Below are positions 4,333 to 7,425 of a stretch of DNA of 10,680 bases, in pieces; within the stretch, counting starts at the first letter, position 1; every line of letters begins with the position of its first letter. The stretch is from Candidatus Curtissbacteria bacterium RIFCSPLOWO2_01_FULL_38_11b (GTDB taxonomy: Bacteria > Patescibacteriota > Microgenomatia > Curtissbacterales > GWA2-41-24). The position numbers and the translations under genes were made by a program. The notes under the pieces were generated by a model. That model saw nothing but the letters and a program-made list of their open reading frames with translations. It was not told the origin of the DNA and ran no database searches. The stretch is taken from NCBI GenBank assembly GCA_001774995.1, contig MFBO01000004.1, positions 1-10,680 of the forward strand, given 5' to 3'.

Positions 4333-4361
4333 TTGTCAGCAAGATAATCTTTGGTTATGTT
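4333..4361 (+). promoter_or_regulatory. pilD-type promoter, copy A
   Basis: TTGTCA at 4333-4338, a 17-bp spacer and TATGTT at 4356-4361, nine bases before the GTG of fragment A. It occupies the same position as the promoter of the intact pilD. If active, it would transcribe rightwards, antisense to the DUF5615 toxin. Confidence 0.5.
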
Positions 4362-4370
4362 GATTAGGTA

Positions 4371-4443
4371 GTGATTCTTTATTTACTGCTCGTTTTTTTG
4401 GTAGGGTCTGCTGTCGGCAGTTTTTTGAATGTAGTGAATAGGA
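4371..4443 (+). pseudogene. pilD 5' fragment, copy A
   Basis: Starting at GTG 4371 the frame reads VILYLLLVFLVGSAVGSFLNVVNR, which aligns residue by residue with the first 25 codons of the intact PilD at 6652. Similarity ends near 4443, after which the frame runs into the end of the toxin gene and stops at 4491-4493. Nucleotide differences from the intact gene are largely synonymous (for example ggg-tct-gct-gtc for Gly-Ser-Ala-Val). The core AGTTTTTTGAATGT (4419-4432) is unchanged. The zinc-binding cysteines, catalytic aspartates and remaining membrane segments are absent, so no peptidase activity is possible. A 40-residue single-pass peptide could be made. Confidence 0.85.
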
Positions 4444-4453
4444 GTAAATTACT

Positions 4454-4786
4454 TCAATTTATTTTATCTTTCACTATGGTAAATTTTCCGTAAAAATCTT
4501 TTTTGGAGGTGAGTAGATTTAGCAAGACTTTTTTCTTATTTTCTACTGATTCATCTTTCAATCTCATAAATATTACACCGGCCGTGACGAATTTTTCTTT
4601 AAATACTAATTCACCAAAATCTTTATCTAAAGTTATTAGAACTCTTTTTTCTTTGTTAGCTATTTCTAGTATTTGAATATCTGGCTTTCCGGGGGCGACT
4701 TTTTTTACCCAAATTATGTTAAAACCTAAATTTTTGCGATATTGTGGAACTCTTACTCCAAGATTTTCATCAGCGATGAATTTCAT
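4454..4786 (-). CDS. DUF5615 PIN-like toxin of a type II TA pair
   Basis: 110 residues using ATG at 4786, which overlaps the antitoxin gene by 17 bp. A frame extension upstream to a TTG at 4822 is unlikely. The protein begins MKFIADEN, the typical DUF5615 opening, and carries the acidic residues expected of a PIN-like nuclease: D6 and E7, D36 in PGKPD, and D54 and D56 in LITLDKDFGE. Known of the family: Mut7-C/PIN-like domain proteins paired with DUF433 antitoxins and thought to be Mg-dependent RNases; few have been tested. The gene ends about 10 bp from the end of pilD fragment A, so the operon runs tail-first into that fragment. A TA role is inferred from the pairing with DUF433. Confidence 0.82.
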   Translation of the reverse strand: MKFIADENLGVRVPQYRKNLGFNIIWVKKVAPGKPDIQILEIANKEKRVLITLDKDFGELVFKEKFVTAGVIFMRLKDESVENKKKVLLNLLTSKKDFYGKFTIVKDKIN

Positions 4787-5009
4787 GGAGATACTTAACA
4801 GAACTTGCGTGCACTGATGCAACAGACTTAGCTGCGTAATTTACAGCCGCTTTAATATCATCTTCGGTAAGTTGAGGAAAGTCACCGAGAATTTCTTCTA
4901 TCGTAAGTTTTTGCGCTAAAAGCTTAAGGATTTGTTCAACCGTAATTCTAGTTCCCTTTACTGTTGGCTTACCAAGCATAATTTTAGGATCAGTAATTAT
5001 TTTTGTCAT
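4770..5009 (-). CDS. DUF433 family antitoxin
   Basis: 79 residues from ATG at 5009. It shows the full DUF433 signature: ITDPKIMLGKPTVKGTRITV at about residues 5-24, then ILKLLAQKLTIEEIL, then FPQLTEDDIKAAVNYAA. This is a winged or helix-turn-helix DNA-binding fold (MerR/VapB-like group) found with DUF5615 toxins. Its stop codon lies inside the toxin gene (17-bp overlap), the usual antitoxin-first order. A -10-like TAAAAT on the minus strand (5024-5019) lies nine bases from the start, so the message may be nearly leaderless; I see no convincing -35 box. Known role: neutralises the partner and usually represses its own operon. Confidence 0.87.
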   Translation of the reverse strand: MTKIITDPKIMLGKPTVKGTRITVEQILKLLAQKLTIEEILGDFPQLTEDDIKAAVNYAAKSVASVHASSVKYLHEIHR

Positions 5010-5076
5010 TTGATGTGAATTTTACCATTATTGAGCCGATTTAAGAAGTGATCGAGCGCAAATCGGGATTGGCCTG

Positions 5077-5106
5077 TTGCATGATTGACGGGATGCTCGT
5101 TATGCT
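5077..5106 (+). promoter_or_regulatory. pilD-type promoter, copy B
   Basis: TTGCAT at 5077-5082, an 18-bp spacer and TATGCT at 5101-5106, six bases before ATG 5113. The geometry and -10 sequence are identical to those of the intact pilD promoter. Confidence 0.55.
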
Positions 5107-5112
5107 AATTTT

Positions 5113-5180
5113 ATGATTTTTTATCTTGTTCTTTCCTTTATCTTTGGCTCTGCCGTTGGCAGTTTTTTGAATGTGGTTAT
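5113..5180 (+). pseudogene. pilD 5' fragment, copy B
   Basis: ATG 5113 opens a frame reading MIFYLVLSFIFGSAVGSFLN followed by VVI, nearly identical to residues 1-23 of intact PilD, including the core AGTTTTTTGAATGT at 5161-5174. Similarity ends at about 5180. The open frame continues to 5340 through sequence antisense to the RelE/ParE toxin, so the 75-residue frame is a chimera and not a real gene. The toxin's TAA stop (5179-5177 on the minus strand) lies within the pilD-like bases. This is the fragment closest in nucleotide sequence to the intact gene, and it shares the bases TATGCTA upstream. Confidence 0.87.
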
Positions 5181-5437
5181 TTGTACGTACTTTCGTCCCT
5201 TTTTCTTATGTCCAGGATATCAAGTGATTTGGAGGTTTCATCAGTATCGAATAGAATTCTATAGTTGCCTACCCTGTTGCGAAATCGGGCCACAGGATAG
5301 TCTACCAATTTTATTGTTCCCAAGACGCGAGGATTTTTAGAGAGTAATTCAATCTTGGTTTTTATTTTTATTTGATTTTGTTTGGGGATTTTTTTAAGGG
5401 ACTTTGCTGCGCGAGTGGAGTAAAGAATTTTATACAT
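5177..5437 (-). CDS. RelE/ParE superfamily toxin
   Basis: 86 residues from ATG at 5437, three bases after the stop of the Phd-type antitoxin. Typical RelE/ParE elements: an N-terminal strand YKILYSTRAAKSLKKIPK, a helix pair with LLSKNPR, then the central RVGNYRILFD strand (the most conserved part of the family), and a final strand LDILDIRKRDESTYK. Known of the family: RelE members cleave mRNA on the ribosome and ParE members poison gyrase. The sequence alone does not separate them, though a Phd/YefM partner favours a RelE-like activity. The last codon and stop sit directly on the end of pilD fragment B. Confidence 0.85.
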   Translation of the reverse strand: MYKILYSTRAAKSLKKIPKQNQIKIKTKIELLSKNPRVLGTIKLVDYPVARFRNRVGNYRILFDTDETSKSLDILDIRKRDESTYK

Positions 5438-5440
5438 TAC

Positions 5441-5746
5441 TTAAATGCCCAGCTGCTTGTAGAGATCCTTTGCAGCAATTCCCTTGCCTGATTTTATTTT
5501 TTTCTTTTGGGTAATTAACTCGCTAATATATTCTTTGTCAGCAAGCTCTCTGATTGCGATTTGTAGTTCATCTATCATTTCATGAAGTTGGTTGTAGCTA
5601 TCCACAGAAGTTAAGATAGCAGAGGGTTTCCCTTGGTTTGTGATGACTATTGGCTCATTGGTCTCTTTGACATTATCCAGAAGCCGGGTTAATTCTTTTC
5701 TGAATTCATGACTACCAATGAATGGTAAGGATAAAGCGTTAATCAT
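5441..5746 (-). CDS. Phd/YefM-type antitoxin
   Basis: 101 residues from ATG at 5746. The N-terminal Phd/YefM fold is clear: SLPFIGSHEFRKELTRLLDNV, then EPIVITNQGKPSAILTSVDSY, matching the family's 'R.....L..v......i.ItrrG.p.avl.s...y'. A variable, charged C-terminal half (about 55-101) would wrap the toxin. The partner RelE/ParE gene follows after three bases. A perfect 14-bp palindrome lies directly upstream, across the likely -10 box, which fits operator binding by the antitoxin or the complex. Confidence 0.87.
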   Translation of the reverse strand: MINALSLPFIGSHEFRKELTRLLDNVKETNEPIVITNQGKPSAILTSVDSYNQLHEMIDELQIAIRELADKEYISELITQKKKIKSGKGIAAKDLYKQLGI

Positions 5747-5753
5747 GTTATGG

Positions 5754-5785
5754 ATATGTTAACATATATGTTAAGAATTAGTCAA
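5754..5785 (-). promoter_or_regulatory. Promoter and palindromic operator of the Phd/RelE operon
   Basis: Minus strand: TTGACT (5785-5780), an 18-bp spacer, TAACAT (5761-5756), ten bases before the ATG. A perfect palindrome ATATGTTAACATAT (5754-5767) covers the -10, and its half ATATGTTAA is repeated directly at 5766-5774. The arrangement suggests autorepression; this is inference from layout. Confidence 0.55.
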
Positions 5786-5799
5786 TGTCTCGTTTGGGA

Positions 5800-5828
5800 T
5801 TGTTTTTCAGAAGTTGTTTGTCTATTCT
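5800..5828 (+). promoter_or_regulatory. pilD-type promoter, copy C
   Basis: TTGTTT at 5800-5805, a 17-bp spacer and TATTCT at 5823-5828, seven bases before GTG 5836. It is weaker than copies B and D but has the same geometry. Confidence 0.4.
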
Positions 5829-5835
5829 CAAGCTA

Positions 5836-5902
5836 GTGATTCTTTATCTTGTCCTCTTTTTTATTTTCGGCTCTGCTATTGGTAGTTTTTTGAATGTGGT
5901 GA
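5836..5902 (+). pseudogene. pilD 5' fragment, copy C
   Basis: From GTG 5836 the frame reads VILYLVLFFIFGSAIGSFLN then VV, aligning with PilD residues 1-22; the only change in the conserved block is Val to Ile. The core is AGTTTTTTGAATGT (5884-5897). It ends against the stop codon of the RelE-type toxin at 5903. The frame continues to 5979 as an artefact over the toxin's antisense strand. Its opening bases (gtgattcttta) are closer to copy A than to the intact gene, so copies A and C may share an origin. Confidence 0.85.
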
Positions 5903-6172
5903 TTATTTTTTTCCAAGCCCAGTGTCATGAGGACCGATGTTTCTCAAAATTATTTGACTATCTTCTATTTGAAAAGTAAATCTATTATGATGGTCAATTC
6001 TTGCTTCGAATTTATTAACACCCTCCATTTTTTTGGCTCTCAATGACGGGTGTCGATAATTTTCTACCAGATACTTTAATTGTTTTGTAAATTTTCGCTG
6101 CAGTTTAATTGGTAGCTTTTTGTATTGTTTGTTAAACGAGGGGGTGAAAATTGGCTTTAAGAATTGAGCCAT
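5903..6172 (-). CDS. RelE-type toxin (mRNA interferase family)
   Basis: 89 residues from ATG at 6172, overlapping the RHH antitoxin gene by 16 bp. Family pattern: FTPSFNKQYKKLPIKLQRKF at the N-terminus, YRHPSLRAKKMEG in the middle (the 'hp.lr.hkL.G' segment), EARIDHHNRFTFQI (the 'wr.rv..~yR..~~i' strand), and LRNIGPHDTGL at the end. This resembles the cytotoxic translational repressor branch of RelE. It is only distantly similar to the toxin at 5177, so the two modules are independent acquisitions and not duplicates. The stop codon abuts pilD fragment C. Confidence 0.83.
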   Translation of the reverse strand: MAQFLKPIFTPSFNKQYKKLPIKLQRKFTKQLKYLVENYRHPSLRAKKMEGVNKFEARIDHHNRFTFQIEDSQIILRNIGPHDTGLGKK

Positions 6173-6414
6173 TTGATTGCATCTTCAACTGAGTCAAACT
6201 TGACTACATTTCCCCTTTTTATATCCTCATCCGCTTTCTTTTCTGACCATTTCCACCACTCATCGCTTCCATATGGAGGTTCGACTTCTTGTGTTAGATA
6301 CTGTCGGAGTAAGTTGCGGATAAATTCTGATCGAGTTGCAAAGCCGCCCTCTTTAGTTTTTTCATCGACTTTTTTAGCTGTAGTTTTCGGAAGAGATATT
6401 GTAATTGTTGTCAT
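6157..6414 (-). CDS. Ribbon-helix-helix (CopG/ParD-like) antitoxin
   Basis: 85 residues from ATG at 6414. The N-terminus TTITISLPKTTAKKVDEKTK, followed by FATRSEFIRNLLRQYL, is a textbook ribbon-helix-helix: a short DNA-contacting strand, then two helices with the R-S-E-F turn. The C-terminal half (about 42-85) is rich in acidic residues and Trp (DEWWKWSEKKADED) and ends VEDAIKWLN, as expected for the toxin-binding arm. The toxin gene begins before this one ends. An inverted repeat overlaps the start and likely promoter, consistent with autoregulation. Confidence 0.87.
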   Translation of the reverse strand: MTTITISLPKTTAKKVDEKTKEGGFATRSEFIRNLLRQYLTQEVEPPYGSDEWWKWSEKKADEDIKRGNVVKFDSVEDAIKWLNS

Positions 6415-6452
6415 ATTGTTAGTATTTAAGAATATTTAACAATATTTGTCAA
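6413..6452 (-). promoter_or_regulatory. Promoter and inverted-repeat operator of the RHH/RelE operon
   Basis: Minus strand: a consensus TTGACA (6452-6447), an 18-bp spacer and TAAATA (6428-6423), then the ATG at 6414 with almost no leader. Perfect 9-bp arms ATATTGTTA (6413-6421) and TAACAATAT (6437-6445) flank the -10 box. These are likely RHH binding sites; autorepression is inferred. Confidence 0.55.
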
Positions 6453-6459
6453 GATATTG

Positions 6460-6487
6460 CTGATAACTTGTTACTTGTCACCTGTTT
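6460..6487. repeat. Degenerate heptamer tandem repeat
   Basis: Four 7-base units, ctgataa, cttgtta, cttgtca and cctgttt, sit between the RHH operon promoter and pilD fragment D. The third unit supplies the TTGTCA -35 box of promoter D. It resembles, on the opposite strand, the clearer TGACAAT heptamers at 8226. Confidence 0.4.
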
Positions 6488-6504
6488 TCTTCTTTCGCTA
6501 TGCT
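6475..6504 (+). promoter_or_regulatory. pilD-type promoter, copy D
   Basis: TTGTCA at 6475-6480, an 18-bp spacer and TATGCT at 6499-6504, the same spacing and -10 as copy B and the intact pilD. Confidence 0.45.
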
Positions 6505-6576
6505 AGATTGTACGTTCTTTTGGTTGATTGTCATTTTTGCTGTAGGTTCTGCAGTCGGCAGTTTTTTGAATGTAGT
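6500..6576 (+). pseudogene. pilD 5' fragment, copy D (most diverged)
   Basis: The frame reads TFFWLIVIFAVGSAVGSFLN then VV from 6512, aligning with PilD residues 1-22. At the position of the PilD start codon it has ACG (6512), so the normal start is lost. An in-frame ATG at 6500 lies inside the -10 box and could only serve a longer upstream transcript. The core AGTTTTTTGAATGT is intact at 6560-6573. The frame stops at 6626-6628. Unlike A-C, no toxin-antitoxin pair follows: only 64 bp separate the fragment end from the -10 of the intact gene. Confidence 0.78.
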
Positions 6577-6615
6577 AGGGGGCCTGTCGATTATTCAGAT
6601 ATTTCAGATGAATGC

Positions 6616-6645
6616 TTGCGCTTTTTAAGGCTTGTTGGTTATGCT
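6616..6645 (+). promoter_or_regulatory. Promoter of intact pilD and probably of the pilus operon
   Basis: TTGCGC at 6616-6621, an 18-bp spacer and TATGCT at 6640-6645, only six bases before the GTG at 6652. Transcription would start at or next to the start codon, giving a leaderless message. The same geometry in the fragment copies supports this reading. Confidence 0.6.
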
Positions 6646-6651
6646 AGATGT

Positions 6652-7425
6652 GTGATTTTTTATCTTATCCTTTCCTTTATCTTTGGCAGTGCTGTTGGCA
6701 GTTTTTTGAATGTGGTTATAGATAGGACGGTGCGGGGTGAAGGTATTGTGGGCAGATCCTATTGTGATCATTGTCGAGCGACTCTTTCGACTCTCGATTT
6801 AATTCCAATTTTTAGCTTTGTTGCACTTGGTGCCAGGTGTCGATATTGCAAAAAAGCATTAAGCTGGCAGTACCCAGTTGTTGAAGGGCTAACCGCCCTA
6901 CTTTTTACTATTGCCTTTTATAGTTTGGTAATCATGGGTGATTTAAATCTAATAACTTTAATTTTTTACTTTTTGACAATATCTGTTGGTATTGTTGTTG
7001 CGGTAGTTGACTTTAAATTTTCCCTTGTGCCTACAACTTTGGTATATGCAGCTACTCTTATTACGCTTTTTTACAACTTTTTTTTCTTAGACCCTCCTGT
7101 TTTTGTTGAAAACGTACTGGCAGCATTTATTCTGGCATTAATTTTTTTGCTAATTGTGGTTTTATCGCGTGGTAGGGGTATGGGGCAAGGTGATATTGTG
7201 CTGGTTTTTTGGATTGGCTTAGTATTAGGTTATAAAGAAGCCTTTGTTGCCATGTTTTTGGCGTTTTCAGTTGGTGCTGTTGTTTCGCTAGCATTAATTG
7301 CTGCTCGTAAAAAGCATTTTGGACAGACAATCCCGTTTGCTCCTTTTCTGATTTTGGGGTTTTTTACAAGTCTATTTTACTCACAGCAGATAATAGATTG
7401 GTATTTAAAATTTGTATATCGATGA
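6652..7425 (+). CDS. pilD: Type IV prepilin peptidase PilD (A24 family)
   Basis: 257 residues from GTG 6652. The frame is open back to 6457, but homology and the promoter place the start at 6652. Domain order is normal: a first membrane segment with GSAVGSFLNVV (12-22), a cytoplasmic zinc loop with C38-x2-C41 and C63-x2-C66, WQYPVVEGLTALLF (72-85), then further membrane segments. The two catalytic aspartates of the aspartyl protease are present: D120 in VAVVDFK and D181 in GMGQGD (176-181). Known role: cuts the leader of prepilins at the inner membrane and, in many bacteria, N-methylates the new N-terminus. It heads the plus-strand pilus operon and is followed after 19 bp by a PilX-like gene. 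Its 5' end and promoter are repeated four times upstream. The intact motifs argue that the gene is functional despite the neighbouring insertions. Confidence 0.93.
   Translation: MIFYLILSFIFGSAVGSFLNVVIDRTVRGEGIVGRSYCDHCRATLSTLDLIPIFSFVALGARCRYCKKALSWQYPVVEGLTALLFTIAFYSLVIMGDLNLITLIFYFLTISVGIVVAVVDFKFSLVPTTLVYAATLITLFYNFFFLDPPVFVENVLAAFILALIFLLIVVLSRGRGMGQGDIVLVFWIGLVLGYKEAFVAMFLAFSVGAVVSLALIAARKKHFGQTIPFAPFLILGFFTSLFYSQQIIDWYLKFVYR

Follow-up and report, generated by a model that had tools for sequence, protein, structure and literature searches.

Some integrative elements restore the gene that they enter by carrying a replacement gene end and displacing the old one, and such restoration is typical of tyrosine-recombinase elements. 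A further kind of event, insertion with long target duplication, is attributed to Nobusato (2000) and Furuta (2010). It is described in PMC3874152, PMC3031569 and PMC1643837, and is the closest known kind to the locus analysed here. That locus lies on a 10.7 kb contig (C4; the window, by which we mean the whole stretch) from a Candidatus Curtissbacteria genome of the Patescibacteria (536 kb, 78% complete, 41 contigs). This genome is G000 among the G- and L-numbers that label genomes and loci within this analysis. In the window, an intact pilD gene is preceded by four in-frame 5' fragments of pilD and three unrelated toxin-antitoxin (TA) pairs, the pairs on the opposite strand. We consider it probable that small cassettes insert inside conserved genes, replace the gene end and displace the native end. 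Direct observations are the anatomy of the units, the empty sites in relatives, the variety of cargo at a given site and, clearly at dciA but in a single genome at pilD, that the outer fragment occupies the native position.

The pilD array of the window

From the outermost fragment to the intact gene, the array consists of the following parts (nt, nucleotides; ORF, open reading frame; core, the conserved stretch at which the fragments end):

4343 to 4436, plus strand: pilD 5' fragment f1, the outermost copy; frame from about 4371, core at 4419-4434
4454 to 4795, minus strand: toxin-family gene of unit 1, DUF5615 (PF18480); stop 20 nt away from where the fragment peptide ends
4770 to 5009, minus strand: antitoxin-family gene of unit 1, DUF433 (PF04255), assigned by Pfam
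5085 to 5178, plus strand: pilD 5' fragment f2; ATG at 5113, core at 5161-5176
5177 to 5437, minus strand: toxin gene of unit 2, ParE (PF05016); stop 1 nt from the joint
5441 to 5746, minus strand: antitoxin gene of unit 2, PhdYefM (PF02604), assigned by Pfam
5808 to 5901, plus strand: pilD 5' fragment f3; GTG at 5836, core at 5884-5899
5903 to 6172, minus strand: toxin-like ORF of unit 3, without a Pfam match; stop 4 nt from the joint
6157 to 6414, minus strand: antitoxin gene of unit 3, ribbon-helix-helix RHH (PF01402), assigned by Pfam
6475 to 6576, plus strand: pilD 5' fragment f4; promoter-like stretch at 6475-6504, in-frame ATG at 6500, core at 6560-6575
6577 to 6651 (approximate), plus strand: spacer leading into intact pilD, without TA genes
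6652 to 7425, plus strand: intact pilD, prepilin peptidase (PF06750, PF01478); core at 6700-6715

Direct repeats span 4343-4438, 5085-5180, 5808-5903 and 6624-6719, of which only the fourth belongs to intact pilD, and a shorter copy spans 6531-6576; E-values in self-BLAST are as low as 4e-25. The fragments retain the pilD frame and terminate at AGTTTTTTGAATGT[A/G]G; a search of the genome for the pattern AGTTTTTTRAATGTNG gave five matches, every one within the pilD array locus. The nearest relatives of the intact gene are pilD genes of Candidatus Curtissbacteria (63-66% in the best named matches). A preliminary description of this DNA had four pilD fragments alternating with three TA pairs and every copy stopping at the same place. 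The layout is confirmed except for the spacer between f4 and pilD, which holds no TA pair, and the shared end point stands nearly as described, homology ending within about 8 nt and not at one exact base.

The units of the window hold TA genes only and no recombinase gene. With a toxin-family gene adjacent to an antitoxin-family gene, they are by anatomy putative type II TA operons; the G007 relative of the toxin-like ORF in unit 3 has a weak ParE_like match, below the cut-off. The promoter that each copy had been said to carry is less distinct: over 60 nt upstream of the start codon, f1 to f4 resemble intact pilD only modestly (0.67, 0.55, 0.65 and 0.68, against a background with mean 0.51 and 95th percentile 0.60), and promoter-like matches number 13 versus 7.4 in shuffles. 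'Promoter' may thus pass as a fair, if weakly supported, label for the region upstream of the fragments. At f1 (4408-4420) and f2 (5150-5162) the core overlaps an intrinsic-terminator-like hairpin with a T run, such sites numbering 5 in the region versus 2.0 in shuffles; such hairpins might shield the TA genes against the promoters that were displaced. An Rfam search of the window found no family, the viral contigs searched held neither a pilD relative nor a core match, and querying proteins with the ORF of the fused fragment gave no candidate.

Native ends and varied cargo in relatives and at other genes

Which of the two gene ends is native can be read from the neighbouring genes, most clearly at dciA, which was found in 13 genomes, all of the window's family. 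In nine of nine relatives without a unit at dciA, the stop of the convergent neighbour lies at most 29 nt from the dciA stop, and in 9 of the 13 loci the neighbour is directly adjacent. Where a unit is present, the neighbour adjoins the stop of the outer fragment instead, with an overlap of 4 nt in G000, a gap of 8 nt in G010 and an overlap of 21 nt in G011; the overlap in G000 is the same as that between neighbour and dciA in G009. The cargo differs among these loci, being DUF433/DUF5615 in G000 and G010, DUF433 alone in G007 (where the fragment, read by eye, is reduced to a remnant) and, also by eye, an AbrB-like/PIN-like pair in reverse direction in G011. The G011 fragment (L304, about 2555-2660) is itself split by about 90 nt, perhaps a small mobile repeat, that inversely resemble a stretch of the G007 dciA array (L301, about 2100-2180).

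The family sample of 15 genomes gave a pilD match in 13. A relaxed-profile scan of 13 loci, the window included, found fragments in G000, G007 and G005 and none in the other ten, so that the empty pilD sites sought across related genomes do exist, though only in relatives with 57-67% pilD identity. In G003, G010 and G014, 126-131 nt separate the core of intact pilD from the start of the divergent neighbour; in G007 that start lies 144 nt from the core of the fragment and not of the intact gene. This test is thinner than the one at dciA, since neighbours differ in the remaining empty relatives and in the window. Because the neighbouring gene adjoins the fragment at dciA and, in G007, at pilD, we conclude that the native end was displaced and survives as the outer fragment and that the cassette supplied the end which the gene has now, clearly at dciA and more weakly, from one genome, at pilD. 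The earlier proposal that a unit enters the gene and restores its end thereby gains support, again more thinly at pilD.

Different TA cargo at the pilD site, which the preliminary description had also suggested looking for, was found in relatives. In G007 one fragment is followed by two genes akin to those of unit 3 (50% for the toxin-like protein, 73% for RHH) and then by intact pilD. In G005 a fragment is accompanied by a Phd gene with ParE remains that lack an open toxin ORF, by the remains of a DUF433 unit and by a pilD with a different 5' end. A Curtissbacteria-like array on contig C97 of G037 (L090) comprises a pilD fragment, a pair of ParE and Phd genes, another, short fragment and a gene of the HepT family; this contig is probably misbinned, since G037, a member of another family, carries a separate pilD on contig C2. 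G005 and C97 share 91% identity over 1.19 kb through the first unit, and beyond it only 39 nt at the core can be aligned; the pilD-proximal part therefore varies between near relatives. A wider pattern search for the pilD core in 373 genomes of the class gave at least two core-like matches in G000, G007, G037, G013 and G121, in the last two on separate contigs.

But is pilD a special site, as first supposed? The data do not support this: many genes are used, at their 5' or 3' ends. Scans of the window's own genome found, at seven genes besides pilD, TA or TA-like pairs that separate an intact gene from an end fragment of the same gene:

PMT_2, 5' end: MazE/PIN
uvrD, 3' end: Phd/YafQ-type, the toxin below the Pfam cut-off
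dciA (G000), 3' end: DUF433/DUF5615, then a unit without family assignment and a second fragment
pyrG, 3' end: HicA/HicB-type, HicB below the Pfam cut-off
ftsZ, 3' end: Phd/PIN and nucleotidyltransferase/HepT, Phd below the Pfam cut-off
dnaJ, 3' end: MazE/PIN
gene of 934 amino acids, 3' end: DUF5678 and an ORF without assignment, a pair that is only TA-like

A second 3' end of hppA carries no cargo. The gene-end scan (score at least 45), in which many matches are paralogues, returned 29 matches in gene-end geometry, 12 in the opposite geometry and 11 in a random control; the loci L104 12471-14565 and L106 7654-9525 were excluded as ambiguous. The same genome holds other repeats. At L118 (contig C28) a repeat of about 100 bp occurs five times (1145, 2623, 4072, 4704 and 5443) with differing genes between the copies that are not obvious TA pairs, and an intact parent gene was not seen there. 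At L098 (contig C8), two 80% identical copies (874-969 and 1794-1893) resemble a gene 5' end, neither leading into an intact gene, and at L115 (contig C25) an overlapping 347-bp direct repeat of 99% identity spans 124-800, perhaps an assembly effect.

How general the arrangement is in Microgenomates was assessed by a flank test, which scores a same-strand peptide repeat across the antitoxin (score at least 50) in sets of 30 loci. Among the loci with enough flank, the threshold was passed by 15 of 28 for DUF433 (class sample), 12 of 29 for Phd/YefM (relatives), 3 of 28 for NUDIX and 9 of 29 for ParE, against 5%, 5%, 4% and 2% of mismatched flanks, respectively. DUF433 and Phd loci together thus have a flanking repeat in 27 of 57 cases versus the 3 of 28 for NUDIX (P 0.0008); three of the 27 come from the own genome (L158, L186, L194). 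Inspection by eye accepted 12 of the 27 as clear gene ends (L163, L170, L172, L176, L178, L184, L186, L192, L194, L195, L199, L216), four of them pilD arrays already covered above, two of these being the window. At L216, where the antitoxin match is below the cut-off, the copied end is the 3' end of a tRNA-Pro. The remainder were excluded as paralogues (L158, L177, L188, L197), as tandem TA (L190) or as unclear or non-coding (L157, L161, L164, L168, L171, L183, L204, L208, L210, L212). None of the three NUDIX matches resembles a gene end. Among the ParE loci, which were sampled from the phylum, the window's own locus (L275) and perhaps L271 have this look, but no other. A pilD set was uninformative as a control (8 of 16 positive), pilin genes being repeated there. 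Outside the family, the target genes resemble, by their sequence motifs, fpg, yjbQ, dtd and rpiB, and unnamed genes occur as well. Two further kinds of repeat were seen in these sets: nearly identical non-coding repeats of at least 63 nt with inverted ends around the DUF433 locus L164 (395 and 2208), and dispersed peptide-level repeats (AEREGFEPS...) by NUDIX genes in two genomes (L224, L229).

Joints, mechanism and rival explanations

One way to obtain two gene ends would be local duplication of the end upon insertion, a strict long target duplication followed by neutral drift of the fragment. Such duplications, of about 100 bp, are known for restriction-modification genes, according to PMC3874152, and the G007 pilD pair, 94% identical in its coding part, would suit this origin. 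However, the upstream part of that same pair is at background (0.53-0.58), and in 16 of 16 3'-end pairs homology stops at the natural gene end: coding identity is 0.67-0.88, and identity past the stop codon is 0.30-0.60, at background (mean 0.48, 95th percentile 0.60). Differences at first, second and third codon positions number 77, 34 and 172 (24 pairs, 431 codons), hence are mostly synonymous, and 37, 17 and 60 in the DNA-found subset (8 pairs, summed by hand, including four pilD fragments versus one gene); second-position differences are too few for drift, with a rough expectation of 1.7 third-position to 1 second-position difference. The pairs were hand-chosen and mostly peptide-found, which biases them toward the synonymous pattern, and the codon test is not decisive by itself, since peptide detection favours such pairs. 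Local duplication is disfavoured, and we regard it as improbable; fragment and restored end look as two alleles from different lineages would look.

That the TA pair came joined to a foreign gene fragment and landed beside an untouched gene would yield the same repeats. The native neighbour, however, adjoins the fragment and not the intact gene (dciA in G000, G010 and G011; pilD in G007), which makes this origin very improbable. An assembly or binning artefact might be suspected in a genome of such incompleteness and fragmentation, the more so with C97 of G037 probably misbinned, but the same anatomy recurs across several assemblies and many genes. Because the separately assembled G007, G005 and C97 have related arrays, an artefact is unlikely to the point that we give it almost no weight.

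What places the joints? Read by eye, they agree to about 8 nt within pilD and to a few nt within dciA across different cargos, and the joints of 14 genes share no common motif (score 5.08, null 5.14, p 0.67). Across 13 species, no other 15-nt stretch in the first 57 or so codons of pilD is as well conserved in its DNA as the one at the joint; identical runs of at least 12 nt are found in 28-29% of genome pairs at the joint, in 19% just beside it and in at most 11% elsewhere. At dciA, too, the peak of identical runs (13-18%, 11 species) falls at the joint. In 13 of 20 units listed, the last cargo ORF toward the joint stops 1-26 nt away (median 3). At L170 the near-joint ORF is an extra one, the toxin-family ORF ending 181 nt away; the units at uvrD, dtd and L199 are flipped, and those in G005, at rpiB, at the third dciA fragment and at ftsZ have no such ORF near the joint.

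In the explanation that we favour, a cassette would combine a TA operon with one end of a conserved gene, and would insert inside the resident copy about 10-35 codons from its end. The gene would be rebuilt with the cassette-borne end, the native end staying outside as a fragment, and repeated insertion at one gene would give an array. Entry would proceed by recombination within a short stretch where the DNA of two species is identical, which would account for joints nearly fixed within a gene and without a motif between genes; probably the DNA is imported and handled by general recombination, without a dedicated recombinase. The own genome encodes RecA and a ComEA-like protein. Gene restoration would make the insertion harmless, and TA addiction would discourage its loss. 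The parts that we infer are the enzyme, the form of the donor and the way in which each toxin first became joined to a core.

The strongest rival is a site-specific recombinase acting in trans, for which the core specific to each gene would be the attachment site, in the manner of integrons, pdif modules and gene-end integrating elements. The preliminary description had implied such an enzyme. The narrow spread of joints among different cargos in pilD and dciA speaks for it, as do the restoration of the gene, a usual trait of tyrosine-recombinase elements, and a PF00589 gene in all 12 genomes searched (G007 lies outside those 12; the incomplete own genome has one such gene). Against it stand the lack of a motif common to the 14 genes, by which a single enzyme would need many unrelated sites, and the lack of a recombinase gene inside the window's units; the presence of PF00589 in every genome searched likewise gives the implied enzyme no backing. 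Serine recombinases were covered by a motif search only. We consider a recombinase in trans rather unlikely.

Several points weigh against cassette entry by general recombination. Joints fixed across cargos would fit site-specific recombination too, the rise of identity toward the joint is weak (15 pairs versus 5, P 0.05), and RecA-type exchange over 12-20 identical bases in DNA of 65-90% similarity would be inefficient. ComEC and DprA signatures were not found in a short regular-expression search of the incomplete own genome, and direct evidence of movement, circles or donors is lacking. TA proteins shared between genomes have diverged about as much as core genes (RHH 73%, Phd 74-77%, toxin-like 50%, pilD body 57-67%); therefore some units may be old and inherited. 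The flank test is also positive at 25 of 250 random places in the own genome, by eye mostly paralogous genes. A broader reading, slightly less likely to hold than not, is that Microgenomates possess a genome-wide cassette system without a dedicated recombinase. Ends of housekeeping genes that are conserved at the DNA level would serve as attachment sites, imported cassettes would bring a spare end and so do no harm on insertion, and TA addiction would counter loss, with many conserved genes, perhaps tRNA genes too, as platforms.

Implications and comparison with known systems

How do TA operons reach chromosomes when no mobile element is in sight? Each displaced gene end is a trace of entry that lends itself to counting across thousands of genomes; it shows which gene was entered and, in arrays, the order of entry. 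The identity model predicts the position of the joint in further target genes. A warning for annotation is that short extra pieces of ftsZ, dciA or pilD in such genomes may be scars left by cassettes.

The literature searched, whose coverage largely leaves out subscription papers, gave no report of TA operons with displaced gene ends on their flanks. The integron-like cassettes of the preliminary description are best kept as an analogy and not as membership. Integron cassette arrays, including super-integron TA cassettes (PMC2654758), likewise line up small cassettes in one orientation on one platform with TA cargo. Here, however, the sites are the coding ends of many genes, the joints of the 14 genes have no common site (attC folding was not examined) and no integrase is seen linked to the arrays: the 10.7 kb window has no integron integrase, and the single PF00589 gene, of whatever type, lies elsewhere in the genome. 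The modules moved by XerC/XerD at pdif sites are also small and without a recombinase of their own (PMC6449649); in contrast, gene ends are replaced here, and the joints of different genes share no site (no dif search was run). Homology-facilitated illegitimate recombination (PMC3240628) combines one homologous end with one non-homologous joint and could create a new joint between TA operon and gene, but in the present loci the core is also the place of the second joint, and hence no recipient sequence is lost.

Gene-restoring integrative elements share the essential outcome, an end replaced by the element and a native end displaced, as at dciA and pilD; unlike them, the present units measure about 0.6-0.7 kb, have many targets per genome and, in the window, carry no integrase. 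Insertion with long target duplication shares an addiction-type operon without mobility genes and flanking direct repeats of about 100 bp. It differs in that the copies here resemble different alleles with homology ending at the natural gene end, and in that the outer copy occupies the native position and one site is reused by different TA pairs. Beyond the earlier reports that we found, the loci described here add gene-end alleles, displaced native ends, arrays at a single gene and TA cargo across a bacterial class.

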